Shown here: positions 24,789 through 49,373 of the stretch, piece by piece
How the letters are laid out: every line of letters starts with the position of its first letter
Position numbering within the stretch: the first letter of the stretch is position 1
Source of the DNA: Amanita rubescens
Lineage: Eukaryota > Basidiomycota > Agaricomycetes > Agaricales > Amanitaceae
Reading direction: 5' to 3'
Assembly (NCBI GenBank): GCA_015039365.1
Contig: WION01000277.1
Span: 1 to 64,000 of the forward strand
Length of the DNA: 64,000 nt
Position numbers and translations under genes: made by a program
The notes under the pieces: generated by a model
The model's database searches: none
What the model saw: only the letters and a program-made list of their open reading frames with translations
Told to the model about the DNA's origin: nothing

Positions 24789-25801
24789 ATCTCGTGATCT
24801 ACTCGGATCGTATGGGCAGTAATCCCATAATTGCCAGCCTATCACGACTTTGGTGACGAGTTTCTACGAGACGCGACGAAAGCAACTTTATTCCCTAGGG
24901 CCTACCGAACCACAAGTTGTCGGTACGTCTACGGTCGCCCTCTATGCCAACTTGCTGTCACATGGTTAAAAACTTGGGAAATATTGGAAAAGCAGTCGCT
25001 GTTGCTGTTTTGCCATTGGTCCTGCCAGTGATTTGGCTGGCAAACTTCCTGTTATCGTGTCAAATTCTCGAAATCATCGAATTAGTGACAGCAAAGGTAT
25101 GAAATCTTAGTTGCTTCGTGTGCATAATAGGCCAACTAACTCTCGTCGGCCATTCGACGAATACCTTCCTGATCGTCATCACCAGCACGCCGCTACATGC
25201 GATCCCACCTCAACTTCTCTCGCGTTGCCTAAGCCACGTTGTCCCCGACATAGAGAACACGGAAAATGAGGCATACTTAAATCCCCAGCCAGCGCGACGC
25301 CAATTTCGCGGGTGGGAAAATTACCAGTCGTGTTTCCTCTTATTCCCAAAAACTAGAGAATATGCAGACTCCTACTGGGTAGGGGCAATGGACTGCTATT
25401 TTTGAAAGTCCGACGTGACGCGCCATGGCAGAGGCGCATTGTCTCATGTCTGTCATGTTATCTAGAACCTGAGCATCGCAAGATGGCATTAGATGTATTA
25501 ATAGACATAGGCTCATAATTATATTATACATGTATTCTTCATTGAATATGTAAGATGGGGGGGTTCAATACTAATTTGGTCACTGGATCTCCGGCATAGG
25601 CTGTGATATTGGCCAATATTTCATGGAGATTACATTTGGCAAGGTCAAAAATAAATATTTGGTTGGTCATATGGCTGACCTGTGGACATGGTGGACGTCC
25701 AGTGGTACATCCGCAGTGTCAGGGGCCATCTGCTTACTAAGCAAATGAGACCAAGACGCGATTGACGCGCTTGACGCGCCGTCCACTTACGGCAAGGCAA
25801 A
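24789..25801. other. Intergenic: WDR59 3'-flank continuation, then transposase-gene upstream region
   Basis: Up to about 24,850 the sequence matches 38,620-38,690, the flank of the decayed WDR59 copy. Beyond that no gene was recognised. Bases 25,750-25,800 are rich in gacgcg repeats immediately before the transposase-like gene. Confidence 0.45.
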
Positions 25802-28590
25802 ATGCAATGGCGGCCATTGAAAAGCGAGCGCTGGAAGTCCTCTAAGCGTCGTACAGCAAAGCAGAAGAATCAGTTAGCCAACCTGCATGCAAAACATCAC
25901 CCCAATGACGAAAACATCCCTCCCCCTCAAGAGCTACCCACCACACCCTCGAACAGCAGCCATACAGGGGGTGTAGATGCTCTGGCAAATCAACTTGATG
26001 TTCTGAAGGATAGAGCAATTACTTACGAGCGAAAATACCGCAATGAACGAAAAAGAAATGCCCGGAAGGAAATGGCACTCATGTCCCTGAAAAATCAATA
26101 TAGCAGCCTATCCACGGAGCACAAGGATTATCAGGATCAGCTACAGCACCTGCATTCTCATCACGGAAAACTCACCAAGCAAAATCACGCACTTGTCATG
26201 CGTGTCAGATGTGCTATTGCTGCCAAGAAGCTTGCTAACGACAAGGCCAAGGAGGCATCAATGGAGGAACCCACATTCAATTTCAAAGAAGACGGTATCA
26301 TCACCGATGCTTCTCGAAGCATGGTGCGGGACCTGGTTGCCAAGTTGGATGTACCAGTCGCAAGTGTTAATGGTGCCGTAAATGTTGTGGCTTCCGCATT
26401 AGGAGTCAGGGTCGAAGGGTGTGCCAGTAGTCGCAGTATTCGCCGGATTATTGGGGAGGCAGGCGTTGCGGCTGAGGTCCAACTTGTAGATGAAATCCGT
26501 CAGGCAGAAGGTACGCCTCGAGTCACTTTGTTTGTTTCCTGGTTAATAATGAGTTAGGGGTAACACTAAGTGGAGATGGAACGACTCACAAAAACGTCAA
26601 CTACCAGTCGCACCATATAACGTATGCGCTTCCCGGCAGTCAGCCAGTTACCCGATTTGCAGGAGCATTACATGAAGTTAACCACACAAGCGAGACCCAG
26701 CTTTATGGCTGGCAATCTCGCATTTCATCCTTATATGCATCCTTCAATGACATAAAGTCTTGTCAGAATAAGGCTGATCCACGGACTTTCACTGCCAAAG
26801 TAAAAGGAATGCTTACCGATCACGCCGAAGACCAGAAGAAGCTGGCCCGTTGCGTTGAGGACTGGAAGCATCTCTCCGAGCGTGAGCTACGGGGAGAGCA
26901 AGCTCTATCAGTGTTACCCCCAAGCGAGCTGTTTCCTCACCTTACCGTAATGATGGACAATCTAATGGTGGCAGCGGGAGGTCCAGCCGGCTGGGATACG
27001 CTTCCAGTTGAGAAGAAGAAAGTTCTTGGGGACGAAGCGTTACGGCAATTACGAATTAATGTTGGCGAGATCGCTTTTGGTCAACTGTCAGATGCGGAGA
27101 AGAACGCGGTTGATTTTTTCGTATGGGCTGGTTGCTGCATGCATAAGGAACTTAATGCTATGAAAGGAGGAAACGCACGAATTCGAGCATGGTGGGGACA
27201 AAATGCTATCGAAGGCCCAGTACTTTTGATGAATAAAGATAATACCGCTGCTGCCGCTGCCACTTCCGATAACTCAAAAGTGAAGGACCGCGCCGTCAAC
27301 GTCTCTGCAGGAGGTGCGCAAAAGGTTCTTGACCTAGCTGGGGCCATCTTTCGACACAAAGACAGCAAGAAAGGTCAACATGATTCCCTTCGTTACCACA
27401 TGGAAAACGTACTTGGCTTCAAAGTCCAGTGGCCGGATACCAGCAACACCCGCTACCACAGCCATGGGGATGCCGCTTGCGAATTCCTTGTCCACGAGCC
27501 ATTGTACGTTGCATACCTAGAACAAATCCGTTTGAAGAAGGATAGTCGGACACTCACGAATATCGAAGAAAATGTTTTGCGTGGCTTCTCTTGCCCTAAA
27601 ACGAAGGAAGAAATTGTTTGCTTTGCAGCATATAATCAATGTATCACGCACCCGTACCTGCGAACAGTGCGTAACAATGAATCAAACATTTTAGATCTCG
27701 GTTTGGTGCATACTAGCCTAATAGCTCATATCCAAAAGCTGCGCAATGACGTTGACCTGGTAGTTGGACCGTCTGCAACGTACAAGACAGCTACTATGGA
27801 TGGAACTCCATTCACTCGACCGGAAGCTGTGTATGTCATTCAGCGGATTTCCAGTGATACCGTGACATATCCTCACATCCGTCGACTCCTCGCTTCATTT
27901 CTTGATGGTGCAATGGAGACCTGGATCCGCTTTTCACGAGAGTTTGCGAGTGGAGGCAAGATTGACGGAGCAACGGCTACTCAACGCCGGTCAGCATTCA
28001 TGAAAACCACGAACGACGACAATGAAGGCGCATTGGGAACTGTATGCACCTCTTTGCGTCGTGCTCCCAGCATGTCATTATCACATTTCAACTCACGCCT
28101 CATGTACAAGAAAAACAACACTAGTTCATATGTATCCAAGTTCCTGGGCCCAGAGGAGCAGAAAAGGTTGCGAAAGAAAGCACGGGAGAATGATCGCCGT
28201 GGAGATGAGCGAGTTCGACGAGAGGCTCAAGCGGAGTACGATAAACAATTGGCTCACAAAAACAAGGAATTAGACGTACGCAAAAAAGAAAGGAAGGAAG
28301 CCATCCTTGCAAAACTGGAATCCGTCAGCCCTCGCACCACTCCCGAAGCGATAGAGAGCATGAAAGTTGCCGAAATCAATCTCCAACTTCGGTGGCATCG
28401 TCAATTCGATAGTCAAGTTCCCCCATCCAAGGATATGCCCAAATTGAAGGCGGAAAAGGTCCTGGTGCTGAAGAGCGCAGTAGAGCGTTATCTGCGTGGT
28501 GAGGCAGTGCCAGGCGAGTCGGCGAACAAAGCTGAAGCGAGCATTGGACGTGTGGGAGACAATGGAGATAGTGAGGAGGAATTATATTAA
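25802..28590 (+). CDS. Transposase-like protein of unassigned class (two exons)
   Basis: Exon 1 (25,802-26,512) encodes a basic, coiled-coil-rich N-terminus (YERKYRNERKRNARKEMALM) followed by a helical domain. A 49-nt GT-AG intron (start gtacgcctcg, end atgagttag) joins it to a ~675-residue second exon. Near the start of exon 2 is TLSGDGTTHKNVNYQS. Further on come FFVWAGCCMHKELNAMKGG, a C/H-containing motif, and NTRYHSHGDAACEFL. An acidic D followed by a cysteine/histidine insert and a charged C-terminus suggests an RNase-H-like transposase, but I could not assign hAT, KDZ, Plavaka or another known superfamily. The frame is intact. Terminal repeats for this gene were not found; the 91-bp inverted repeats start 216 bp downstream. 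The start could be 25,802 or slightly downstream. Confidence 0.6.
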
Positions 28591-28805
28591 TAGAATTCTC
28601 AAATTCCTCGCTCGTCCTGTACCCCTGGGCTACAACAACACTCTGTATACCTTCTCCATACCTCCCACATCACATTAGGGCCTTCGTTCCAGCGGCACGA
28701 AGCCCAGTTCTGGTGTGTTATAACATTTGCCATCGGGCCTGCTGTTCTTCGCTTATATTAGCTTACATAATCATCACGCTTTTCTGACCGTGGTTGCCCC
28801 TCCCC

Positions 28806-28896
28806 ACTCCTACCCAGTCCCTCGGTGCTGCGCTTGACGAGCTTAAGTAAGCGTTAACGCACCGGAGGGACTGGCTTTTAACACATGTAAACAAAA
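28806..28896 (+). repeat. Left 91-bp inverted-repeat arm
   Basis: Exact reverse complement of 29,534-29,624. The base outside (28,805) does not extend the match, and the first inner mismatch is at 28,897. Confidence 0.95.
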
Positions 28897-29091
28897 CGCT
28901 CGGCACGACGTGACGTGACCTCGTCGCTTAACTAATGCTGAAATATTCTTCCTCGACTTTATGTATTCTCTACATGCATTGTCAAAGGACTTGAGTAAAT
29001 CACATATTGTTATTCCCCTACATTGCCTGGTTTTTGGGCTGGGGGAGCAAGATTGTCCTATATGTAATACATTTGAATACATAATTTAATT

Positions 29092-29162
29092 GCCTCTGTG
29101 GCTGAGTGGTTAAACTCTCAATTATTTTTGTATGGTTGAGGGTTCAATTCCAGCACCAACCA
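29092..29162 (+). other. tRNA-like sequence with A and B boxes (not a functional tRNA)
   Basis: An A-box match tggctgagtgg lies at 29,099-29,109 and a B-box match ggttcaattcc at 29,141-29,151, with tRNA-like spacing. Acceptor and T stems do not pair in the expected register, so this is a tRNA-derived or SINE-like promoter rather than a working tRNA. Confidence 0.5.
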
Positions 29163-29264
29163 CATTTTTTCTATATGAGACAGATAGTCACTATGTGCTA
29201 TGCTCGTAGATGCAAATAAAATGCCACAGAGACTTATGGTGGCTAATGCTGAAGGCATAAAAAG

Positions 29265-29337
29265 GTGAGCCTGCCCGGATTTGAACCCCAAGCCATGCAA
29301 AAACAAACCATCATAACAACCATTCAGCCAAACAGCC
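29265..29337 (-). other. Second tRNA-like sequence, opposite strand
   Basis: On the minus strand an A-box match tggctgaatgg (29,320-29,330) is followed by a B-box match ggttcaaatcc (29,277-29,287). Stems again fail to pair. The two tRNA-like units converge inside the inverted-repeat element. Confidence 0.5.
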
Positions 29338-29533
29338 AATTGTAACTATACATCACAGGTTTTATATATAGACGAATCTCACCCTGGCCAGCTTTAACTA
29401 GACGAGCATGGAAGCAACAACATTCCTAACCTCATCACAATTATACATCACTACTAAGCTGTATGGAGCGTACACGAATGCAAAGATAAGACAAATGAAT
29501 GTGATCGATGTGTGACGCTCGGCATTGCAGACC

Positions 29534-29624
29534 TTTTGTTTACATGTGTTAAAAGCCAGTCCCTCCGGTGCGTTAACGCTTACTTAAGCTCGTCAAGCGC
29601 AGCACCGAGGGACTGGGTAGGAGT
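29534..29624 (-). repeat. Right 91-bp inverted-repeat arm
   Basis: Exact reverse complement of 28,806-28,896. Confidence 0.95.
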
Positions 29625-31336
29625 CTGGAGAATATGGCCAAATACACGGCGGTTGAAGAGTGGACGCAGTGTTTGGGAAGAGGGACATGCAGGAGTGGTG
29701 GTGCTGAGATAGACAGAGGGAAACGGGAACAATAGAGACGGAGGCCGAGGAAAGTAGCAAGATTCGTGAAGGATCATTTGAAGACCGAGCCGGGCGGGGA
29801 AGACTGCTTTACTGGAGACGGCTGCAGTGATTACAACGTTCCGCAAGATCCTCTATTTGCCCCAAACGAATGACGGATCCCCAAGTCTAGTGACGTCCCA
29901 CTCGCCTGCAGGTATATCTTTAACGGACGAAGAAGGACGACAGCCTACTTCTTGCACAAGTGCAGCAGTGCCGGTTTGTATCGACGAGCCTAGTTGCGAG
30001 ATCCTAGTTGACCAGAACCACCTGCACCACTCCTTCCCCTACCTTCGGAAGCTGTCGTATTTCCTTCCCAAAAGTAAGACAAGCCGACCAACCGTCGTCG
30101 TCTATCGCTAAATTGTCATACTGTTCGAACCGACCCGTGGATGTTCGAGCATCGATGATCTCTGTAGCGTCCACGACAACGATCTCGGATGACATCGTCA
30201 ACAGCAACCATGGTACTTGGTGGAGAGGAATAAATGCAGCAAAAGGCAGGTCCAACGGATAGCGTTGAACGAACGTTGGGAATATCCGACACGAGGAAGC
30301 TCTAGTCTTGACGAGCCCGGGACTCGGAAGTGCGTGGTCGAAAGGTAAAATCGAGTCCTGCCCTACGACAAACGGAATACAGCTTACAAGGGGGACGACC
30401 GGCGTTTACGGCGGTGGGCGTTACAGATGAACACTCGGTTCTGACTTCGAGGGAGCGATAGGGAACCAGTTTCTGTCAGGACGATATCGTTCTTCCGAGT
30501 GTCCGGCTGTCGCTCGGGAGGCGTTTGCTATTGGAAAGAAGCGAGACACTATGGCCGTTCGGACGGTGACAGCCCGGATGGCGAGTTTCCGTTGAAGCTC
30601 CTGCGTTGGTTGGACTCCCAATACGGGGAACCCTCCAAACACCGTTGCCGAGAAAATGGAAAGATGCTTTAGCAAATGCGGATAGAGACAAGAAATCGTT
30701 GCTCTCGATGCCAGCAGACAATGACTCTTTGTACCAGGCGAAAAGACAGCCTTCGACCTTCGAAGCGTTCATCTGCGAGGGTAAATGGAGGATGACTTTT
30801 ACTGGATGATTGAAACCTCGGGACATGAAGGGACTTTTTTCAAAAAAAGAACCCGTTATGCCTTTGGCACATGGTAGGACTCGGACATCCACTGTACATA
30901 TGGTATACAAACTGTGAGCCTGCCTGCAAGATATCTTCTTCCACTAAAGATAGGTGTGGCACTGTGTGCCAGGTCTGACTTGCATACAAATTCATGTTTT
31001 AAGTTCTGCATAAATTTTGCAGTGATGCTGAACAGTTATTTTTCAGCATTAGTACATTCATTCTATTCTGAGAGTCATGTGTAGATGAGTTATGTTTTTG
31101 AAAGCTGTTACCTTTTTGAAGTTTTCTTGTACATTGTAGGCATCTGCAGTTAAGATAAGCCTCAAAGATACTCTCACTCAGCACCCAGTTGGTAGTACAG
31201 TGCATTCAGTCTGGTAAAGCAGAAATGATTGAAGGCAATTTTGGGTCATTTTTAATCATAAATGTCCATAACATCAGACTCCAGTATTCAAATACTACAT
31301 ATTCTGAATTCATCACCAGGCTACTGTAGTACACTA
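29625..31336. other. Intergenic, partly 3' flank of the NACHT-ankyrin gene
   Basis: No gene was recognised from 29,625 to 30,880. From 30,884 onward CpG vanishes and composition changes to match the downstream receptor gene, so 30,884-31,336 is probably its 3' untranslated and flanking sequence. Confidence 0.5.
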
Positions 31337-34300
31337 CTACATAGATCTATATTCTTGTTTTGCTCCATATTTCAGCAACAGATCCACAATGGACTTGTGG
31401 TCCTGCTTAGAGGTAGCCAAGCTGTGAAGAGCTACATCAAGGTGCTCCTGTGGTGCACCATGATCAAGCAGTACTTGCACAGCTGCTTCATTACTTCTAA
31501 GAGATGCTGCTTGCAGTGCATTAGAAACTTCTGATTTCACAACATAAGAGCTGCTTTCATCACTGTCATTGACATTATGATGTCCATATTCCTCAATGTG
31601 TACAGTGTGGTTGCAGCTGACATTGGCACCTGCTTGCAATAGCAATTCCACAATGCCCACATGACCCACATATGATACAGCTTGTAGGGCATTTCCATAC
31701 TGTCCCCCCTGTGCATTCACATTAGCACCAGTTTCAACCAGCAGCTCAACAATGTGCTTGTGACCCCTATATGATGCAGCTTGCAGGGCATTTCCAAACT
31801 GTCCTCCCTGTTCATTCACATCTGCTCCTCTTTCAACCAGGAACTGAACAGTGTGTTTATGACCCTGATATGATGCAGCTTGCAGGGCACTTCCATACTG
31901 TCCTCCCTTTATATTCACATCTGCACCCTTCTCAACCAGCAACTCCACAATGTCCCAGTGACCATAAGGTCCATAACATGATGCAGCCTGCAGTGCATTT
32001 CCATGTTTTCCTCCTTGTGCATTCACATCTGCTCCTCCTTCAACCAGCAGCTCCACAATGTCATTGTGACCCCAATATGATGCAGCTTGCAGGGCACTTC
32101 CATATGGTCCTCCCTCTGCATTCACATCTGCACCACTCTCAACCAGTAGCTCCACAATTCCCCAGTGACCATAACATGATGCAGCTTGCAGTGGATTTCC
32201 ATATTCTCCTCCTTGTGCATTCACATCTGCTCCTCCTTCAACCAATGCCTCCACAATGTCCTTGTGACCCCAATATGATGCAGCTTGCAGGGCACTTCCA
32301 TATTGTCCTCCCTCTGCATTCATGTCTGCATCATTCTTAACCAGTAGCTCCACAATTCCCCAGTGACCATAACATGATGCAGCTTGCAGTGGATTTCCAT
32401 ATTCTCCTCCTTGTGCATTCACATCTGCTCCTTTTTCAACCAGCACCTCCACAATATCCTTGTGACCCTGATATGATGCAGCTTGCAGGGCACTTCCATA
32501 CTGTCCTCCCTTTACATTCACATCTGCACCCTTCTCAATGAGCAGCTCCACAATGTCCTTGTGACCCTGATATGATGCAGCCTGCAGGGCACTTCCACAC
32601 TGTCCTCCCTTTACATTCACATTTGCACCTCTCTCAACAAGCAGCTTCACAATATCCCAGTGACCATAATATGGTGTAGGTTGCAGTGCATTTCCATATT
32701 CTCCTCCTTGTGCATTCACATCTGCTCCTCTTTCAACCAGCAGTTCCACAATGTCCTTGTGACCCTGATATGATGCAGCTTGCAGGACACTTCCATACTG
32801 TCCTCCCTTTGCATTAACATCTATACCCCTCTCAACCAGAAGCTCTACAATGTCCTTGTGATTCCAATGTATTGCAGCTTGCAGGGCATTTTCATACTGT
32901 CCTCCTTGTGCATTCACATTTGCTCCTCTTTCAAGCAGCAGCTCCACAATGTCCCTGTAACCATAACATGATGCAGCCTGCAGAGCATTTCCATACTGTC
33001 CTCCTTGTGCATTCACATCTGCTCCTTTTTCAAGCAGCAGCTCCACAATGTCCTTGTGATTCCAATGTATTGCAGCTTGCAGGGCATTTCCAAACTGTCC
33101 TCCTTGTGCATTCACATCTGCTCCTCTTTCAACCAGCAGCTCTGCAATGTCCTTGTGATTCCAATGTATTGCAGCCTGCAGGGCATTTCCATACTGTCCT
33201 CCTTGTGCATTCACATTTGCACCTCTTCCAAGCAGCAGCTCCACAATGTCCCTGTAACCATAACATGATGCAACTTGCAGGGGATTTATGAGCTCTTCTC
33301 CCCATGCATTGACATTTGCACCTTTTTCAAGCAGTAGCTCAACAATATCATTGTGGCCATGATTTAATGCAGCATGCAGGGCATTTATGAGCTCTTCTCC
33401 CCATGCATTGACATTTGCACCTCTTTCAAGCAGTAGCTCAACAATATCATTGTGGCCATGATATAATGCAGCATGCAGGGCATTTCCAAACTTCCCTTCC
33501 CATGCATTCACATCTGCACCTCTCTCAAGCAGTAGCTCAACAATGTCTTTGTGGCCATAATATGATGCAACTTGTAGTGCATTTCCAACTCTAGCACCAC
33601 AGGCATTGATATCCATATCTGGATTATACTTTAGAAGGGTCTTTATAATGGCCATGTGTTTATTCTGTGATGCTACACATAATGCTTCTATGATCTCAAT
33701 GTCCCTCCTGACACTTGGTAGCAACCACTCAGTTGTTATCACCAGGCCATGATATGCAGCACAATGTAAAAGGCTTGATCTTTTCATATCTTCAACATAT
33801 GGATATGTCCAAAGTGGTGCATTATGTATTCTAATCCAGTTTTCAAAAGCAAGGCTTGTAAGTACAAAAAGTTTCTTGATCTTTTCAATAACATCAAGTT
33901 CCTGATGGGCCTCTAGGATGTGATGTGGCCAATATGTTGCAGAATATCTAATAAGTGACCATTCATCTCCTGTATCAGTATGACTTTCAGAGTCAAGTAT
34001 GCAAGTCAAACAACATTGCCCTATAAAACTCCCCCCTTGTGAGGGATCCATGATCACATTGGCCTGTATGGTCCTTTGTTTTTTTAGAATGTACTGCTTG
34101 ACAGATGCATGTGCTAGTTGTATTGTGCTATCATCCATTCTAGTCACCAGACTAGAACAAATTTTTAGAATATCTAGTGGAGATGATAGCTTTCCATCTG
34201 AATCAAAGGTATTCTTTTCCATATCAAACTCCACAACAGTTGCCAGATACTCCATGTGCAATGGTTCCTTTGCAAATGCCAACCACATAAACAGTTTTAC

Positions 34301-36222
34301 AGCATCTAGCACATCAGCAGGGGGAATTCTGTTAAGGATTTGATCATATGTTTCTTCCAATGTTATAGGAAGACTATCAAGAGTGAATTTCAATGTTCTT
34401 TTCCTTTTAGTGCATTTCTTTAGCTCTTCCAGTTGACATGCTACCCAACGGAACCTATTTACCATTAGGTAGATCCCTGGATTTGAAAGAAAATACTTAC
34501 ATCCCATTGGCCTTTTCCAAGAGCACCATTCTAATATCATTTTTTTCTGTTATGCCCCATTCCTTCAATCCTGGGGAGGATTGGAGCATATCATTGATGT
34601 AGTTTTCAATGTCATCATCAACTGCCTCACAAGTCATATCAACTGCCATGGGCTCCATTGGTGTTAACAATTCAGTAATTTGTTGTTCTTGCCTGCTGGT
34701 AACCAGCAAATGCAATTGTTCTAGGCCCTGTCTATGTAAATTTTCAATTTGCATCAAAACCTTCTCCACCTCCAGACATTCATCCAGAGCATCGATAAGA
34801 ATGTAAGTGTCTTTAAAGCCACATATAAATTGTCTCAAAATTTCAAGCATTATTTCATTTGATGGTTTTGAAAGCCCATCCTGACATTCCTTAGTATAAG
34901 TGTTGTTCAGAAGTGATTGATCTTGTGGTTTCCAAGCAAGAAGATGGACAACCAATGAATTGAGAATTTCGGTTGCTTGTCTCTTTTTGGCATCAGAAAT
35001 ATCACAGTAGAAATATGCAATTCCAATGGAATCCTTTGGATTGATAGAATGAATGTCTTGGACAACCTTGGAGCTTCAAGACATCAGTGGAAAATCATGA
35101 AAAGCCACTGGTCTTACAAAAGAATAGTTTTTCCAGCACCAGCTACAACTAGCATTGAGACTCTACAGGCTTTTCCAGTTTTGATATATGCTTACAGATA
35201 CCATGGATCCACATGAATGAATTGGGCTTCTGTTTCCATTCCACATACATCTGGTATCTCAGGAGCCATGATCCAGTGTCAGAGTGACATTTTTCAAGGG
35301 CATTTTTATGGTTAGTAGATGGATCAGGTGGCATCAGCCACTGTCTGTACTTCTCTTTTACATATAAGAAGTCAAATCCTGATTCCTGATAACAATGTGA
35401 AATGCATACCTTCAACATGTGAAAGTTGAGGAGCCTGGTGGACTACAATATGTGATGATGAACATAATCAAGTCTAGTACTAGTGGGAACCTACCATTTA
35501 TAATCTACAAAATGTCAATGAAGCCCTCCAAATCGCTAGTGACACATACCTGATCCCTCTGAACCACAGTGAATGAGGATCCTTTGACTTCAAAGTGATG
35601 TGCATGGGCAAAGAAGACAGTATTTCTAAGTGAAATTAGCAAAGCATAAACCCAGGAGTGTCACATTTTGAAATTGATGGCAACATATTTGTGAAATGAT
35701 TAATAATTGTCCTTGAAAGAATAGCCTTATCCACTCACCCATTCTGAATGGCAGGTACTGTTCCTGTGGGTTGACTGAAACGAAGATTAGTTGGTGGTGG
35801 ATGGCATTTTCAGAGACTTGCCTGTTTTGTTGGGCCATGGGATTGGTTGAGCCAATGTTCTCAGTATTCACCCCAAAACTCTTGTGAGAATCAGATTGCC
35901 TGAAATAATAATTAAATAAGGTTGTCAGTATGTAGATGGATTTTTGCAACACAGACTTATTTTGCTGGGGTATTGCCACATTGATTCCAGAGTCAGTCTT
36001 CTTGGGATTGGTCACAGCAGCCTGCTGAGAATTGGTAGGTTGTCTGAAATGATGGTTAGCATTGTTGGCAGATGAATTTTGAGATCCTGGCCTGTTTTGC
36101 TGGGCTATCACAGTTGAGCTAATATCTGTAGGTATTGAAGTTGTGTTGTTATCTTCAATGCCAATGTCATTCTCCAGGTTGTGAGTACCCTTGCGACTGA
36201 ATTTAGAGGGAGAGCATCCCAT
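31337..36222 (-). CDS. NACHT-ankyrin STAND (NLR-like) protein 1, predicted lipid-anchored
   Basis: Spliced minus-strand gene. The start is taken at ATG 36,222 rather than the upstream 36,288 because it opens MGCSPSK, an N-myristoylation/palmitoylation signal. A Q/N/S-rich segment on small exons follows, then a short exon with HHFEVKGSSFTVVQRDQ, typical of agaric NACHT N-termini, and a WLMPPDPSTNH...DTGSWLL linker. The NACHT ATPase has Walker A VAGAGKTI (near 35,130), Walker B YILIDALDEC and sensor HLLVTSRQEQ. A 46-nt intron (34,455-34,500) restores GMFRWVACQLEEL. About 20 ankyrin repeats of 33 residues follow (GNALQAASYxGHKDIVELL type). Such proteins are fungal immune-type receptors acting in heterokaryon incompatibility or pathogen sensing; the ligand is unknown. 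The long exon is intact, and the whole unit is almost CpG-free. Confidence 0.85.
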
Positions 36223-36288
36223 GATGATAGTGATGGAAGAGAGATAAGTGTGGTGGGAAAATGCTATGGCAAGGGTCACGTTCGTCAC

Positions 36289-37059
36289 ACTGGCTCTTTT
36301 GAGATTGCCACGTGCTCTGGGGACGCACTCAAACGACGGTTCGAACTTCGTCCTTTCCTTGTGTCAATATATGCCAGAGTATACCTCACATCCGCGCTAG
36401 GCAAGGGGTGTATGTGAATTGCTATCAAGGAGCACCAGATCAGACACCAACACTTGTTGCGCGGTCGAGTTGGCATGGTCGTACTAGTTGACGGTATGCA
36501 CTGCTAGCTGTGCCCACTGTACACTACAGCGCGTGCTTCTCGTACAAGTCTAACCGCGATTGTCCTCAGGAAAAGGGATGAAATTGACCGTGAGCTAATA
36601 GTAGTACTTCAAGATCTACAGTTACCGTGACTGGGGGTTTGGTTACGCAACTGATATCAACACCCCACGGCTAATTCATGGCAAGGCCACCCGCGATGGT
36701 TTGCAGGCTTTTTTGGCTGTGTTTTTCTTTTCTTTTTTTTTTTTGGGGGGTCGGGATGTCCTATTCTCAGCGTACGCAGTGCCTCCCACTCGTTTTCGCT
36801 CATCTCACCAAAATTAAATCTCTCAGAATGCATAAATTCGACCCCTGAGGACGATCAGGCCAAGGCTAACAGCGCTAAGCCCGCCTGATTTCTATTCTCC
36901 ACTGTGCCATCATTGAAATCCGCGGTACTCGTCATCAGATCCGTCATCCACAGCTGTTAGAGATGAGTGCAGCGCTCCGAAGCCTCAGTCAGGACCATCT
37001 GACACCCAATGGCGCTCTCCCAGCCTACCGCCATCCCCAGCGCGGCTCCGTTTTTGTTC
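36289..37059. other. Intergenic region with a T12/G6 tract
   Basis: Contains the divergent upstream region of receptor 1, where CpG becomes frequent again beyond about 36,190. A homopurine/homopyrimidine run of twelve T followed by six G lies at about 36,733-36,750. No gene was recognised. Confidence 0.45.
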
Positions 37060-38335
37060 CATTTCCGTTCCGTTTACGTGTGTCGTTGGTATCCGCCAAA
37101 ACAGTGGGTGGGAGGTTGGGAATTATTGCGGAGTGCGGAGAAGAGCTGCCAGCTTTGATTTACGTCGAAGCTTTCCAGAACCGAGATGGTGCTACGCTCG
37201 AGAGGGCCACCTCTCTCAAAGGTGGGATGGCGGAAAGATCTATGTGTTTTCGCTACGAGGAGCACGGTGTTCCTCGTGAAGGTCCAGGCAAGAAGGTCGC
37301 CAGAGGTAGCGTTCAAAATGTTTACTGCACGTCGTATGGATCTGTAAGTTTCGACCCGTATTCATGATATATATGGTTCAATTAACTATCTGCTTTACAA
37401 GAACAAAAGACACGTTCACTGCGTTCAGATGCTCGTCGAGGCTGTCAAACATTTCAGTTTTGTTGAGCGAACGGTTCCTAAGCCGGCGGGAGGACGACGT
37501 TGGACGTATGACTGCCTGGAAGTACATAACAAAGCGGTATCAGCCGCCCCAAGGAAAACAAAGGACGACAGAGAAGAACAATCGGACCGTAATCGCACAA
37601 CGCCTAAACAGGACGACAAAGAAATGGTAGATAAAAGACATGGCAGTCCAGACTCCACCCCCGCCGTTCGGGGTCACCCTCTGGCCGCGTGCCTGCCATT
37701 GATAACGATAACATCAATTGGGGTTTGAGAAGGCGGGAAGACCACGGGGATGGTAAAAGAGTCCGAGAGATGCTGATAAGGGGAAACAAGAGGTTTTTTT
37801 TTTCATGACGATAGGTGAGCGTCACCTTTGGAACGCACGTTTGTCGTGGTTTTAATTATGGGGTTTATGGGGTTTTCTTGTTGCCGGTGTTTAGAACAGC
37901 CGCCGTTTGGTTGGTTGGAACTTGGCAATTCTCGGCACGTGCATTTATGTTTTTAGCATTTTCGGCGGGAGATGGAGTTGGTCGCAAGACTGTAACTACT
38001 AACTAGGTCATTGAGAAGAGCAGAAGGGTGCGGAAGCGTAAATAATTCAGAAACGAGTACCTGTAGTACCTGTGCAGTTGAGTGATTTTTTTTTGGTTTT
38101 GCAGAGCGGCGGCAGAAGGACCAGATGTCCGGTATGCGAGAGCCGAAATGGGGTTCGGTTGTAGTACCGGTTGAGGACCTGTCAAAGTTGCTTCGGACTT
38201 TGTTGCGTTGCGATAGTGGCGCGGCGCTAATGCCGTTGTGGATACCTCTAGGCTAGTAGGAATGCGTATATGCTGTGTTTCGATGCCGGACACATGTCAA
38301 GATAACTGTACTGCCCATGTGGGTGTTTTTTTTCT
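37060..38335 (+). pseudogene. Decayed duplicate of the WDR59 3' half
   Basis: Blocks collinear with the WDR59 gene run through this interval. cgctacgaggagcacggtgt corresponds to 21,228; atggatctgtaagttt (exon end plus donor) to 21,500; gttcagatgctcg to 21,592; gtatgcgggagccga-like to 22,864; and tgctgtgtttc...acatgtca to 22,998. Indels and stops abound, the low-complexity linker is missing, and the zinc-module cysteines are partly lost. Sequence upstream of 21,100 (propeller, RWD) is absent. It is a partial genomic, intron-containing duplication rather than a retrocopy. Confidence 0.8.
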
Positions 38336-38690
38336 TCTGATGGCAGGCTGGCAGTATGCAGAACTTCGACTAGTCGCAAAGTCTTATTAAACCTGGGGTC
38401 ATTCTACTGTCGACGAGAGCATTGTCGGTTACACCGCCTAATCGTGTATTTTACCGTGACTCGGTGTAGCCATGTACACCTTTGTCGAGTTTGTTCTTAT
38501 CGTTGGCGTAGCTCCAAGATAAACAAAGAGTGGTCGTGTGCCCAGATATTCTAAAAGACTCTTCTGGCCGCACAACCTACACATTCGCTATCGCGTCATT
38601 TCGACAAGTCCCTCGTGGTCTATTCGGATCGCACGAGCAGTAATACTATAATTACTGGCCTATCATGGCGTTGAGCTGTCAGATCGTATG
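38336..38690. repeat. Copy of the WDR59 3' flank (empty site of the 1.1-kb insertion)
   Basis: Matches 23,465-23,690 and continues directly into sequence matching 24,789-24,850, skipping the insertion. Shared blocks include gacgagagcat, acaaagagtggtcgtg and ggatcg...cagtaat. Confidence 0.7.
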
Positions 38691-43690: not shown

Positions 43691-44231
43691 TTTGATCCGT
43701 GCGTATAACGGAAGAGCGACTGGCAACCAACCGAGTCCGGGGGGCGATGGTGCGATGATGGATTCCTGTTCATTCTTTTTAGTGAAAAAGGACACAGATA
43801 TTGAACGGGACTCGATTTTTTCTCATTCTTTCTCTTTTCCTTCCCTGTTCTTGTCGCTGCCCTGTTGACCTGTGCATCGCCTTTCCCTACATTTCCCTTT
43901 TTGGTAGTAAGTCATACCCGCCCGCTCGTTAGTTGCGTAATTATCCATAGAGATGACGAGGATGTATATAAGTGCTGCATACACTACGTAGCTTATATTT
44001 AAAGTATGTATGAACCAACATCCAACTTGTTGTGTATGTTTAAAGCTGATTAAGGGGTGTCCTCTTTTGAGCCATTGTATTGCATCTTAACTAGTGGCCA
44101 ATCATGAATCATATTACATACATATCATAATATACACAATTTGATGTAAGTATAAAGGAAGACCTACAACTTGTTGGCCTTCATTAAGATGAGTATTTGA
44201 ATTTCAGCATAACCATACATACAATGTATTA
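43691..44231. other. CHS7 3' flank and receptor-2 3' flank
   Basis: The first part is CpG-containing, T-rich CHS7 trailer sequence. From 43,989 CpG disappears, marking the 3' flank of the convergent NACHT-ankyrin gene 2. Confidence 0.5.
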
Positions 44232-47200
44232 TCATACTGATGGATTTGCTCCCTTGCTCAATAGGTGCCTTACAATTTCAGGATACTTTCTTGCAGCCTG
44301 CAGTGCATTGCCAAAAAATCCACCCTGAGCATTCACATCTGCTCCCTTGTCAAGGAGAAGACTGATAATTTCTGCATTGCCCCTCACTGATGCTGCTTGC
44401 AATGCATTGCCATAAAGTCCACCCTGAGCATTCACATCTGCTTCTTTGTCCAGAAGGAGTGTGACAATTTCAGCATTGCCACACTCTGATGCAGCATACA
44501 ATGCAGTACCATATTCACCACCCTGAGCATTCACATCTGCTCCTTTGTCCAGAAGGAGTGTGACAATTTCAGCATTGCCACACTCTGATGCAGCATACAA
44601 TGCAGTACCATATTCACCACCCTGAGCATTCACATCTGCCCCCTTGTCCAGAAGAAACCTGACAATCTCTGCATTGCCCTCCATTGATGATGCAGCATAC
44701 AATGCAGTACCATATTCACCACCCTGAGCATTCACATCTGCTCCTTTGTCCAGAAGGAGTGTGACAACTTCCACACTGCCAACCACTGATGCAGAGGCTT
44801 GCAATGCATTACCATGAAATCCACCTTGAGCATTCACATCTGCTCCTTTGTCCAGAAGGAGTCTGACAATTTCTGCATTGCCCCTCTCTGATGCAGCTTG
44901 CAATGCATTACCATGTTGACCAGCCTCAGCATTCACATCTGCTCCTCTGTTCAGAAGAAGTCTGACAATTTCTGCATTGCCCTTCACTGACGCAGCTTGC
45001 AATACAGTAGTACCATGTTCACCATCCTGAGCATTCACATCTGCTCCCTTGTCCAGGAGAAGCCTGACAATCCCTGCATTGCCCTCCACTGATGCAGCAT
45101 GCAATGCATCACCATATTGACCAGCTTGAGCATTCACATCTGCTCCTAGTTTGTCCAGAAGAAGAAGGAGAATTTCTGCATCTCCCCTCTTTGATGCAGC
45201 TTGCAATGCATTATGATAAAATCCACCCTGAGCATTCACATCTGCTCCTTTGTCCAGCAGAAGTCTGACAATTTCTGCATTGCCCTTCACTGACACAGCT
45301 TGCAATGCAGTACCATATTGACCATCCTGAGCATTCACATCTGCGCCTTTGTCCAGAAGAAGTCTGACAATTTCTGCATTGCCTTTCACTGATGCAGCTT
45401 GCAATGCAGTACCATATTGACCAGCCTGAGCATTCACATCTGCTCCTTTGTCCAGAAGAAGACTGACAATTTCTGCATTGCCCTTCACTGCTGCAGCTTG
45501 CAATGCAGTACCATATTGACCAGCCTGAGCATTCACATCTGCTCCTTTGTCGAGAAGAAGACTGACAATTTCTCTGTAACCCTTTTCTGCTGCTGCATAT
45601 AATGCAATGGGGCCATAAACCTCTCCACCCTGTGCATTAACATCTGCTCCTTTATCCAGAAGAAGACTGACAATTTCTGCATTGCCCTTCACTGCTGCAG
45701 CTTGCAATGCAGTACCATATTGACCACCCTGAGCATTCACATCTGCTCCTTTGTCCAGAAGAAGGCTGACAATTTCTTTGTAACCCTTTTCTGCTGCTGC
45801 ATATAATGCAATGGGGCCATAAATAAGTCCATCCTGTGCATTAACATCTGCTCCTTTGTCCAGAAGAAGACTGACAATTTCTGCATTGCCCTTCACTGCT
45901 GCAGCTTGCAATGCAGTACCATATTGACCACCCTGAGCATTCACATCTGCTCCTTTGTCCAGAAGAAGTCTGACAATTTCTGTGTAACCATTTTCTAATG
46001 CAGCATGAAATGCAATATCATATATTCCACCCCACAGTGCATCCTCATCTACTCTGTCCAGAAGAAGACTAACAATTTCTGCATAACCATTTTCTGATGC
46101 AGCATGCAATGCATTCACATATTCACCACCCTGAGAATCCACATTTGCTCCTTTGTCCAGAAGAAGACTGACAATTTCTGCATTGCCCTTCACTGATGCA
46201 GCTTGCAATGCAGTACCATATTGACCACCCTGAGCATTCACAGCTGCTCCTTTGTCCAGAAGAAGACTGACAATTTCTCTGTAACCCTTTTCTGCTGCTG
46301 CATATAATGCAATGGGGCCGTAAACAAGTCCACTCTGTGCATTAACATCTGCTCCATTGTTCAACAGAAACTTGACAATTTCAGCATGACCATCAGATGA
46401 TGCAGCCTGCAATGCATTGCCATATTCTTCATTCCATTCATTCACATCTACTCCTTTCTCCACAAGCATTTGGACAATTTCTATATTTCCACCTCTTACT
46501 GCAACATGAAGAGTCCCTGCATATGATCCAGGAAACCCTTCATTGTTTATGCTCAAGCTCTCCACAATATCTTTCAATCCAAGCAATGCAGCATAATGAA
46601 GTGGTGATGCATGATGATAATACCAGCTTATTTTCCAACTGTCATCATAAATTTCACTCCATTTGAGAAAGGTACCATTTTTATCTTGGAAAAATATTGT
46701 TCCAATGTTGTGCAATGATGTATTCTTGTTGCTAAGCTGGTAGTGATTTGGCCAAAGATTAACTGAATAAAACAACAGTGGAAATTTGGTCTCATTGGCA
46801 TGCCATCCATCTTGCATAAGATACATCAAACAGCAGTGAGCAATGGAAGCATGACCTGAAGCTAAATCAGGCAACCCAATCTTGTTTGGTTTCTGAAGAA
46901 AGTACTCCAGCACAGATGCATGAGCTAACTGAACTGTGTCAGAGCCTGTATTTATTACAAGACTGGAGCACATGTGCAACACATCTGCAGCATGTGCCAG
47001 TCTCAGACTAGGATCAAAGTTACCACTGAATGGATCAAACATCACAGCAGTGGCTAGTTGCTCTTGTGTTAAAGGCCTCATTCCTAACACTAACCACTGC
47101 ATAATAATCTGTGCAGATGACTTTTCTCTTTCATGGATTCTCTGAAGTATTTGATCATATATGGTTTCAAGATCCTTTGGAAGGCATTTCAATGTGTCCA

Positions 47201-48246
47201 TAAGCACCTTTTGGCTTGGACAGTGTCTCAGCTCTTCAATTTGGCATGCAACCCAGCGAAACCTACCCAATTACTTTAAGTTTTCATCATAATCAGACAC
47301 CATGATACATACATTCCATTTGCTCCTCTGATCAGTGCATTCTTCACATCTTGTTGTACTTTATGACCCCATTTCCTCAATCTGTGATCTTTTCCAACAA
47401 CTGAATTGATGTAGGATATGATGTCACTCTGAACTAACCCTGCAGACAGGGATATTTCAGCCAGGGTATATTCTCCCATGATGACAATGATTTCCTGCAC
47501 TCTCCTGCTGCTCACTAAAAGGTGAAGTTGTGGCAATTGCCACTCATGAATAACCCTAATCACTTGATCAAATAGCTGGTCATAATCATCACATTCATCC
47601 ATAGCATCAATAATCATGTAAGCATGCTTGAAGCAACTGAGGAGCCTCATCAGAAGATGAAGGAGTTCATCCTCTGTTGGCTTGTGTAACTGATCATGTT
47701 GCTCATAAAGTTGTTCCATGAGGAGATAATTTTTTGATTTTGCTGTGAAACTTAATGTTAGAGATGAAAGAAGACTTTCAGATGTTTGCTTTGCTTTGTC
47801 ATTGATATCAAAATAGAAATAGGCCAAACCAGACCCAGGTTGATCCTTAACAATGGTTTTGAGATTCTCAATGATGGTGGAACTAATCTTTCTTAAGTGG
47901 CTAGGAAAAAAAAAAGAGTAGCAGCATGCTCACCAGATGATTGTTTTTCCACAGCCAGCTATCAATCTTTGGGTCAATGACCATTAAACCTGTGCATCTC
48001 ACTCACATATGCCATTGATCCAGATGAGAGAATTAGGTTGCTCCTTCCAAGCAATATATCTTTCATCCCCAAGTAGCCACTGACCAGTGTCTTGATGGTA
48101 CTTTTTTCTAGCACTGTTATGATTAATTGATGGATCTGGGGCAGTCAGCCACTTTTTGAATTTTGCTGCCAACACAAGGATGACAAATCATTATAAAAGT
48201 TTGGTTAGACAACAAACCAAGAAGCTCTTCTGTATTTACTAGACAT
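44232..48246 (-). CDS. NACHT-ankyrin STAND (NLR-like) protein 2
   Basis: Paralogous in plan to receptor 1. A plausible start at 48,246 gives a very short leader spliced (intron gtaaatacag...gttggcag) to KFKKWLTAPDPSINHN and DTGQWLL. Walker A SGCGKTI is assembled across a GT-AG intron near 47,960. Then come LAYFYFDINDKAKQTSES, Walker B YMIIDAMDEC, sensor HLLVSSRRVQEI and, across the next intron, GMFRWVACQIEEL. About 23 ankyrin repeats (GTALQAASVKGNAEIVSLLLD type) run to the stop at 44,232. NACHT ATPases switch by oligomerisation on ligand sensing by the repeat domain. Unlike receptor 1, no lipidation signal or Q/N-rich leader was found. The unit has only five CpG in 4.3 kb. The start is uncertain. 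Confidence 0.82.
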
Positions 48247-48280
48247 AATATTTGAGATAAAAAATTTAATCATATTATTG

Positions 48281-49373
48281 CGACATGTGACGCACGGTTT
48301 ATCTGTGTCAAAGTCACATCAATTTTCAGCGTTGCATGAGTCATAAACACACATACGAAGTTGCCATGGACTTCAGTAAAAGTACCATCCTTGATATTGA
48401 TGTTCATATTGACAACACACAGTGGTGGTGCCGTGGTGGGCGATCAAGATGCAGAGATGGCCTGCGTGTCACGATGCCGGTCACATTTTCCACGATACGG
48501 GATCTTCTTGACGACTATCCCCTAGCCTATATCTCTTCCCTCGTTCTGTCTTTCGTTGTTCCCATACCTTCTCAAATCGATATCTCCCTCCAACCGTTGT
48601 CCCACCCACATATCCCACAAATCCCACAAATTTTTTAACTGCTTTACCCTCGCCACCACGTCTTTCTTCAAGTTCTGTTATGACCATCGTGTCTACGCAG
48701 TCCTGCTCGTACCCTCCAATACTAGTTGCCTCCACTCATCATTGAAAGCACAACCAGCGGTGGCACCAGCAACAACCGGAGTGAGACAACTTGCTCCGTG
48801 CCTATGCTGAGCGTAAGACATCTACTGGCTTCAAGCGTTCCTCCAACTCCTTTCACTGCTACCAACGACACTAGCCTGGTCGACATGTTCTGCACCCGCA
48901 AGGGTAACTGGTCCTTAACTACCGCTGGCATCAAGCGTCCCGATAACTCTACCTCCCCCTTCGCCTCTATCACGGTACCGCCCCCGACCGTGCTCCGCCA
49001 AGCATATACGGAAGGTAAAGCCATAGCTCATACTTCCTGAACACGTGGGAGGGGGCGGAGAGCGTATACAGATTATGTGGCGCAGCGGAGAGATGCGGTT
49101 GCCCCGAGTCGGGCATTGCTCTCATGAAGATGGAGCCCTATCTCCCATATACGCAAACTGACCGTCTTTTACAGCCCGCTGCCCTTTATTGATGACCCAT
49201 GCCCATCCATTATCGATGTACGTACGTACGCGTGTTCTCTTAAGTTGATTTGTGTGAGACAATATGCATATTGAATTTATGTCGTATCAATGTAAGGTGT
49301 ATGTCAGATATTTATGTCAGGGTACAGAGCTGAGCTGAGGTTCTCAGGCTATTCTACATTCCAATATCATATG
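48281..49373. other. Intergenic, contains repeat related to 52.0-52.2 kb
   Basis: Blocks around 48,800-49,040 (cctatgctgagcgtaagaca, ctcctttcactgct, agctcatacttcc) recur at about 52,050-52,165 in the same order. Neither copy has a recognisable product; open frames here are proline/serine/threonine-rich and probably compositional. gtacgtacgtacgcg at about 49,217 is a short simple repeat. Confidence 0.5.

Follow-up and report, generated by a model that had tools for sequence, protein, structure and literature searches.

A 64,000-nucleotide stretch of the Amanita rubescens genome (assembly GCA_015039365.1, contig WION01000277.1, positions 1 to 64,000 of the forward strand; hereafter the window) contains two CpG voids, each lying over the body of a NACHT-type ankyrin gene. 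CpG void 1 (30,883–36,193) retains 5 CpGs where its own base composition predicts 226 (observed/expected ratio, o/e, 0.022), and CpG void 2 (43,988–48,280), which covers a neighbouring homologous gene, retains 5 against 182 (o/e 0.027); neither feature is assigned a strand. The mutational product is TpG and CpA, the loss is specific to CpG and ends at sharp limits, the void CpGs are largely unshared between haplotypes, the reading frames are kept, and the ankyrin unit is CpG-free family-wide. We consider it likely, with a probability of about 70%, that CpG-specific methylation and C-to-T mutation have acted along the gene body but not at its start, while purifying selection maintained the protein. 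A large family of intact receptor-like genes carries this extreme, sharp-edged and seemingly recent footprint of CpG mutational load, and two questions can thereby be tested in a single species: how a fungal gene body comes to be singled out for CpG attack, and whether receptor repertoires are moulded by the pressure of mutation.

Listed along the window, CpGs lie at 30,882 and 34,449 with none in between, followed within void 1 by those at 34,793, 34,970, 35,534 and 35,781, and then by 36,194 at the edge. This agrees with the first-pass annotation, which had read no CpG from 30,884 to 34,448 and only five through 36,192, and which had estimated that well over a hundred were due. The 3,565-bp CpG-free run would be expected to hold 159 CpGs from its own C and G content, or 208 at the density of the non-void part of the window (3,174 CpGs in 54,392 bp). 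Elsewhere in the window, CpG gaps reach at most 251 bp, and all four void edges are met by several CpGs within approximately 100 bp outside. Void 2, in the other NACHT-ankyrin gene, was absent from the earlier finding.

Gene 1 (31,337–36,222, minus strand) is an NPHP3_N (NACHT-type) ankyrin gene whose ATG at 36,222 and introns are predicted from sequence. It comprises a frame matching NPHP3_N (34,500–35,075, minus strand; E 7.1e-19) and an ankyrin exon (31,337–34,455, minus strand; 1,040 codons from RFRWVA) that includes a 99-bp tandem array (31,647–33,587, minus strand; 19.5 copies, 80% matches). Its putative N-terminus, MGCSPSKFSRK (36,190–36,222), resembles an N-myristoylation plus palmitoylation signal, and such modification is a prediction. 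Gene 2 (44,232–48,407, minus strand), with a probable ATG at 48,407 (MNINIKDGTFTEVHGNF) read by eye, likewise presents an NPHP3_N exon frame (47,276–47,929, minus strand; E 7.8e-20), together with a winged-helix match under the curated cut-off and a 99-bp ankyrin array (44,292–46,278, minus strand) of 19.5 copies, which in the other haplotype has 9.7 (locus L072, 1,416–2,378). The STAND architecture, an NPHP3_N match plus ankyrin repeats, is present in both genes. Void 1 extends from 27 bp inside the putative coding start of gene 1 to 453 bp past its stop and covers the apparent introns; the first reading had already included introns and some 450 bp beyond the stop, whereas its placement of the other limit about 30 bp upstream of the ATG has to be corrected, the CpG at 36,194 belonging to codon 10 if the ATG is at 36,222. 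Since the ATG of gene 2 is probably at 48,407, void 2 begins about 125 bp inside that gene, and it ends approximately 245 bp past the stop.

The kind of mutation can be read from dinucleotide gains and losses computed against the non-void part of the window. Void 1 has 305 CpGs missing, 324 TpG+CpA gained, 361 G+C bases missing and a TpA change of +14; the corresponding figures for void 2 are 246, 282, 298 and -17. The CpG deficit and the TpG+CpA surplus stand at about 1:1, close to the expectation if every lost CpG had become TpG or CpA, and 1-kb windows entirely within a void display TpG and CpA o/e values of approximately 1.4–2.0. A TpG/CpA excess, proposed earlier as a check on deamination, is therefore present in both voids and about equal to the CpG loss. 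No CpA-to-TpA bias of the Neurospora RIP type was found in voids 1 and 2, where CpA was gained and TpA is unchanged. The ratio of TpG+CpA to CpG reaches 211 and 175 in the voids versus 2.4 in the first 30.9 kb; as a rough estimate, these ratios would imply, at equilibrium, that CpG loss relative to the reverse change is 70 to 90 times faster in the voids than outside.

Depletion affects every part of void 1, with 0 CpGs against 15.8 expected in the 3' flank, 1 against 143 in the ankyrin exon and 4 against 67 in the 5' exons and apparent introns. All codon phases are depleted, only 1 CpG being found in the 1,040 codons of the gene 1 exon and 5 in the 1,011 codons of the gene 2 exon. A CpG-normal ankyrin gene on contig C100, by comparison, carries 65 CpGs in 312 codons, so that ankyrin coding constraint is not the explanation.

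Within the genome searched (75.7 Mb, 786 contigs), the window locus occurs four times: as itself and in contig C145 at 100% as rounded (99.87% over one 1.5-kb stretch; counted as a near-identical copy), and in contigs C526 and C15 at 91%, the latter two being identical over the 10 kb fetched. We infer that these copies represent two haplotypes, each assembled twice. Between the haplotypes, void 1 has 1 shared and 10 unshared CpGs, 8 of the 10 opposing CpG to TpG/CpA, and void 2 has 1 shared and 4 unshared (3 of the 4 of this type) in a comparison that amounts to 5 CpGs, with those of the window copy at 44,991 and 45,551 uncounted because they fall in gap columns. The flanks retain far more, with 63/48, 89/7, 61/16 and 45/21 CpGs shared/unshared (63 of 111, 89 of 96, 61 of 77 and 45 of 66 shared). 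Fisher tests, which treat CpGs as independent, gave p = 2.8e-5 for void 1 and 0.021 for void 2. The sharpest comparison comes from the 5' portion of gene 1: there the haplotypes are 1.1% diverged (19 differences) and share 0 of 5 CpGs, versus the adjoining CpG-normal upstream flank (36,194–37,700, no strand), a low-divergence control with 19 differences in about 1.5 kb that shares 89 of 96 (p = 1e-5 at similar divergence). At such low divergence, this difference in sharing makes the CpG loss look recent and ending at the gene edge.

Haplotype divergence across 29,700–38,500 is mosaic, amounting to 12–14% left of the ankyrin exon, 8.6% within it and approximately 1–2% from 34.5 kb rightwards, a pattern that would fit a recombination or introgression boundary inside gene 1; for this reason divergence is well matched in just one of the flank comparisons. 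Further to the left, a 4.3-kb segment (25,364–29,625) with open reading frames at 25,775–26,557 and 26,494–28,590 is absent from C145 and C526, which, together with the approximately 12 bp shared by its joining points, suggests a recent insertion. At its right end lies an 823-bp repeat (28,806–29,628) with terminal inverted repeats of about 91–95 bp and 17 other genome matches at 97–100%, one of them partial.

The single CpG common to both haplotypes in each void belongs to one conserved Arg codon (of RFRWVA), which is CGT in gene 1 (34,449–34,450, no strand) and CGC in gene 2 (47,257–47,258, no strand). CpG transitions of CGC or CGT would yield Cys or His, and retention of this CpG is thus a prediction of purifying selection under CpG mutation. 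Among 84 sites matching FRWVxCQ genome-wide, inside or outside voids, this Arg codon is CGC in 43, CGT in 24, AGA in 14 and CGA in 2, and one site has AGC (Ser). Among the sites read, CGY is kept in the two genes of the window, in their copies in other fetched contigs and in the paralogue on contig C166, and an AGA-type gene (C363) has 0 CpGs in 1,201 bp, with 43.8 expected. Neither haplotype nor the C166 paralogue has an interrupted ankyrin frame (1,070, 1,077 and 1,066 aa), and dN/dS is 0.58 between gene 1 haplotypes, 0.40 between gene 2 haplotypes and 0.35 between gene 1 and C166; the first 230 codons of the gene 2 ankyrin exon give 0.82, on 8 changes.

These observations bear on one of the two readings offered by the first-pass annotation, namely that CpG is avoided, here taken to be by selection, which would let a repeat-rich receptor gene evade CpG-directed silencing. 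The CpG-retaining gene start and the intact frames would suit such avoidance, but the 3' flanks, apparent introns and non-coding satellites described below are depleted as well, the sole shared CpG in each void is that of a conserved Arg, and 11 of the 14 unshared void CpGs are CpG versus TpG/CpA, the change expected from mutation. We regard this explanation as highly improbable.

To determine how widespread the voids are, we surveyed a sample of about 295 kb beyond the window, some of it duplicate copies, and searched the genome for protein motifs. Genome-wide, the ankyrin unit GADVNAQG, sought as a degenerate pattern, matched 395 sites, 393 of them in CpG-free form, although these units share common ancestry and are non-independent. 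As controls, the kinase motif HRDLKPxxN was CpG-free at 4 of 35 sites and the WD40 motif VAFSPDG at 18 among the 100 matches listed, of 410; a TPR motif pattern returned only 6 matches. The near-uniformity of the ankyrin units and their shared ancestry could reflect amplification of a CpG-free ancestral unit, the arrays being CpG-free by descent. As the sole cause this is refuted by the 5' exons, apparent introns and 3' flank, which are depleted like the array, and CpGs outside the arrays also differ between haplotypes, so that descent is a very unlikely explanation.

A CpG-free run of at least 600 bp occurs in 10 of the 38 NACHT/NPHP3_N loci fetched. Nine of these ten represent one family (L001–L008 and L071, which overlaps L001), and the tenth is L060. 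No run of this length was found in 20 copia loci, 7 loci of the 823-bp repeat or 3 methyltransferase loci. Transposons, considered as an expected target of the voids, were rejected, all 20 Ty1/copia loci sampled having a CpG o/e of 0.76–0.96; these loci may be too young to show decay. CpG content is normal in the sampled STAND genes of WD40 type, as it is in the C100 gene (L047, L075), which combines NPHP3_N and ankyrin repeats with a short, diverged array. On contigs C38 and C44, 14 of 15 WD40 units among the matches listed are CpG-free; the NPHP3_N loci there (L042 and L044) are CpG-normal (o/e 1.00 and 1.01), and we therefore attribute the CpG-free units to codon usage within an array that has been homogenised. 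Voids in this sample are a property of the ankyrin family and of a few satellite regions and do not extend to STAND genes as a whole, and the void class named previously, STAND genes, was too broad, given the CpG-normal WD40-type genes and one CpG-normal NPHP3_N-ankyrin gene. A CpG-free ankyrin unit lies approximately 3.4 kb from the C100 gene, on its contig, which makes this gene a natural control for the trigger of the voids.

All five void cores retrieved (genes 1 and 2, C166, C716 and C56) contain a long tandem array. That of C166 consists of 21.1 copies of 99 bp at 90%, and two are non-coding satellites downstream of a NACHT gene: 71 bp x 25.7 in C716 (L076, 13–1,851; 1 CpG in 2,001 bp) and 65 bp x 20.6 in C56 (L074, 372–1,722; 5 CpGs in 2,401 bp). 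Across an exon of the C716 family, CpG becomes sparser toward the satellite, and the void begins within an exon. Homology between C56 and its CpG-normal counterpart L059 stops at the void edge, so that L059 provides no sequence under the void. A long tandem array as the sole trigger was our initial idea and was rejected: a WD40 array (L077, 13.5 x 129 bp, 91%), similar in length and identity to that of C166, has a CpG o/e of 0.99. An array is thus not sufficient, and array structure, common to the voids, is a candidate cause of their marking.

The array trigger is retained as a rival in the following form: head-to-tail repeats would be recognised and their CpGs actively mutated in a RIP-like manner, with spread of 0.3–2.6 kb into the flanks. 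The arrays in all five cores, the fading of CpG in the C716 family and the near-totality of the loss, which suits an active process, argue for it; the CpG-normal WD40 array, the spared copia repeats and the C56 void, which ends at a sequence breakpoint with no spread beyond, argue against it. We judge it unlikely, while giving it appreciable weight. A horizontal transfer from a CpG-poor donor might also be proposed from a composition so sharply unlike that of the neighbours. However, every organism-named match among the best 18 relatives of the non-ankyrin part of gene 1 is from Amanita, and the void of the C716 family starts within an exon; such a transfer is the least probable of the alternatives.

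The preferred reading, gene-body methylation followed by C-to-T mutation under purifying selection, can be set out as a sequence of steps. The void would be a domain of intense CpG-to-TpG/CpA mutation reaching from just inside the putative coding start to 0.25–0.45 kb past the stop. Within it, 5-methylcytosine laid at CpG over the gene body, presumably by DNMT1-like and DNMT5 enzymes, would be deaminated, and the promoter would escape methylation. Purifying selection would then remove the damaging products, such that CpGs at synonymous and non-coding positions are lost and the one in an essential CGY Arg codon is kept. In genes 1 and 2 the footprint is of this shape, with a depleted body and a CpG-retaining start region, the gene ends being placed from sequence and not from transcripts. 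The genome encodes predicted DNMT1-like, DNMT5-like and DNMT2 enzymes, and the DNMT5-like gene matches PDB 7r76 (E 5.1e-87), an entry named 'DNA repair protein Rad8' that we take to be the DNMT5 of Cryptococcus. Methylation machinery, a further check put forward at the outset, is thus encoded in the species. The other earlier reading, of a unit methylated and deaminated while its frame was kept, gains support from the TpG/CpA excess, the methyltransferase genes, the open frames and dN/dS below 1, with methylation itself as the presumed agent.

The extent of the loss deserves consideration. CpG depletion in humans is five-fold, according to the accessible text of PMC13297926, and since the void o/e values lie far below this, passive deamination may not suffice by itself, and an active, RIP-like step may take part as well. 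The spared copia loci, in which methylation had been expected, also tell against the preferred reading, unless they are too young. Going further, the fungus might possess a mutator devoted to CpG, analogous to RIP, that targets the bodies of receptor genes carrying arrays, its load being tolerated since the mutator and array shuffling diversify the receptors. We hold this proposal to be doubtful, less probable than the array trigger; if true, the absence of CGN Arg codons save one essential CGY would be the scar of a long coexistence.

Several known systems share features with these voids. The available text of PMC4352252 reports decay of basidiomycete transposons with a CpG signature and a Masc2-like enzyme; that process (methylation, MIP-like, then deamination) resembles ours in its CpG-only C-to-T change, DNMT1-type enzyme and lack of a CpA-to-TpA signature, whereas the voids affect satellites and intact genes under selection, and the 20 copia loci sampled are spared. 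Rhizoctonia solani AG8, also an Agaricomycete, undergoes CpG hypermutation with CpG-to-TpG differences between nuclei, genes included (available portion of PMC4014442), but that mutation is described as widespread over genes and repeats, while the voids are discrete and edged, with near-total CpG loss. Neurospora-type RIP has in common with the voids C-to-T mutation, here near repeated DNA, and differs in that here no CpA-to-TpA signature is seen, frames are kept, and copia repeats and a WD40 array are spared. Gene body methylation, stated in the accessible text of PMC13297926 to be largely lost in fungi, with exceptions, since it mutates coding DNA, would have in common with the voids an affected body and a spared start, a likeness read from the sequence footprint; in Puccinia striiformis it is linked to lower allele expression, and the portion of PMC12129025 available mentions no CpG exhaustion. 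The nucleotide-binding domain and ankyrin array with copy-number polymorphism that characterise fungal NLR/STAND genes (PMC4986451, in part) are matched by NPHP3_N and the ankyrin array here, including the 19.5 versus 9.7 copies in the gene 2 haplotypes, and CpG exhaustion goes unmentioned in the same part of that source. A search by title and the start of abstracts, with most subscription papers outside it, returned no description of CpG-void receptor genes in fungi. The nearest precedents found, judging from the available parts of PMC4352252 and PMC4014442, are therefore transposon decay and the hypermutation of Rhizoctonia solani, from which the Amanita voids differ in being restricted to the discrete bodies of intact genes under selection and in the near-total exhaustion of CpG.
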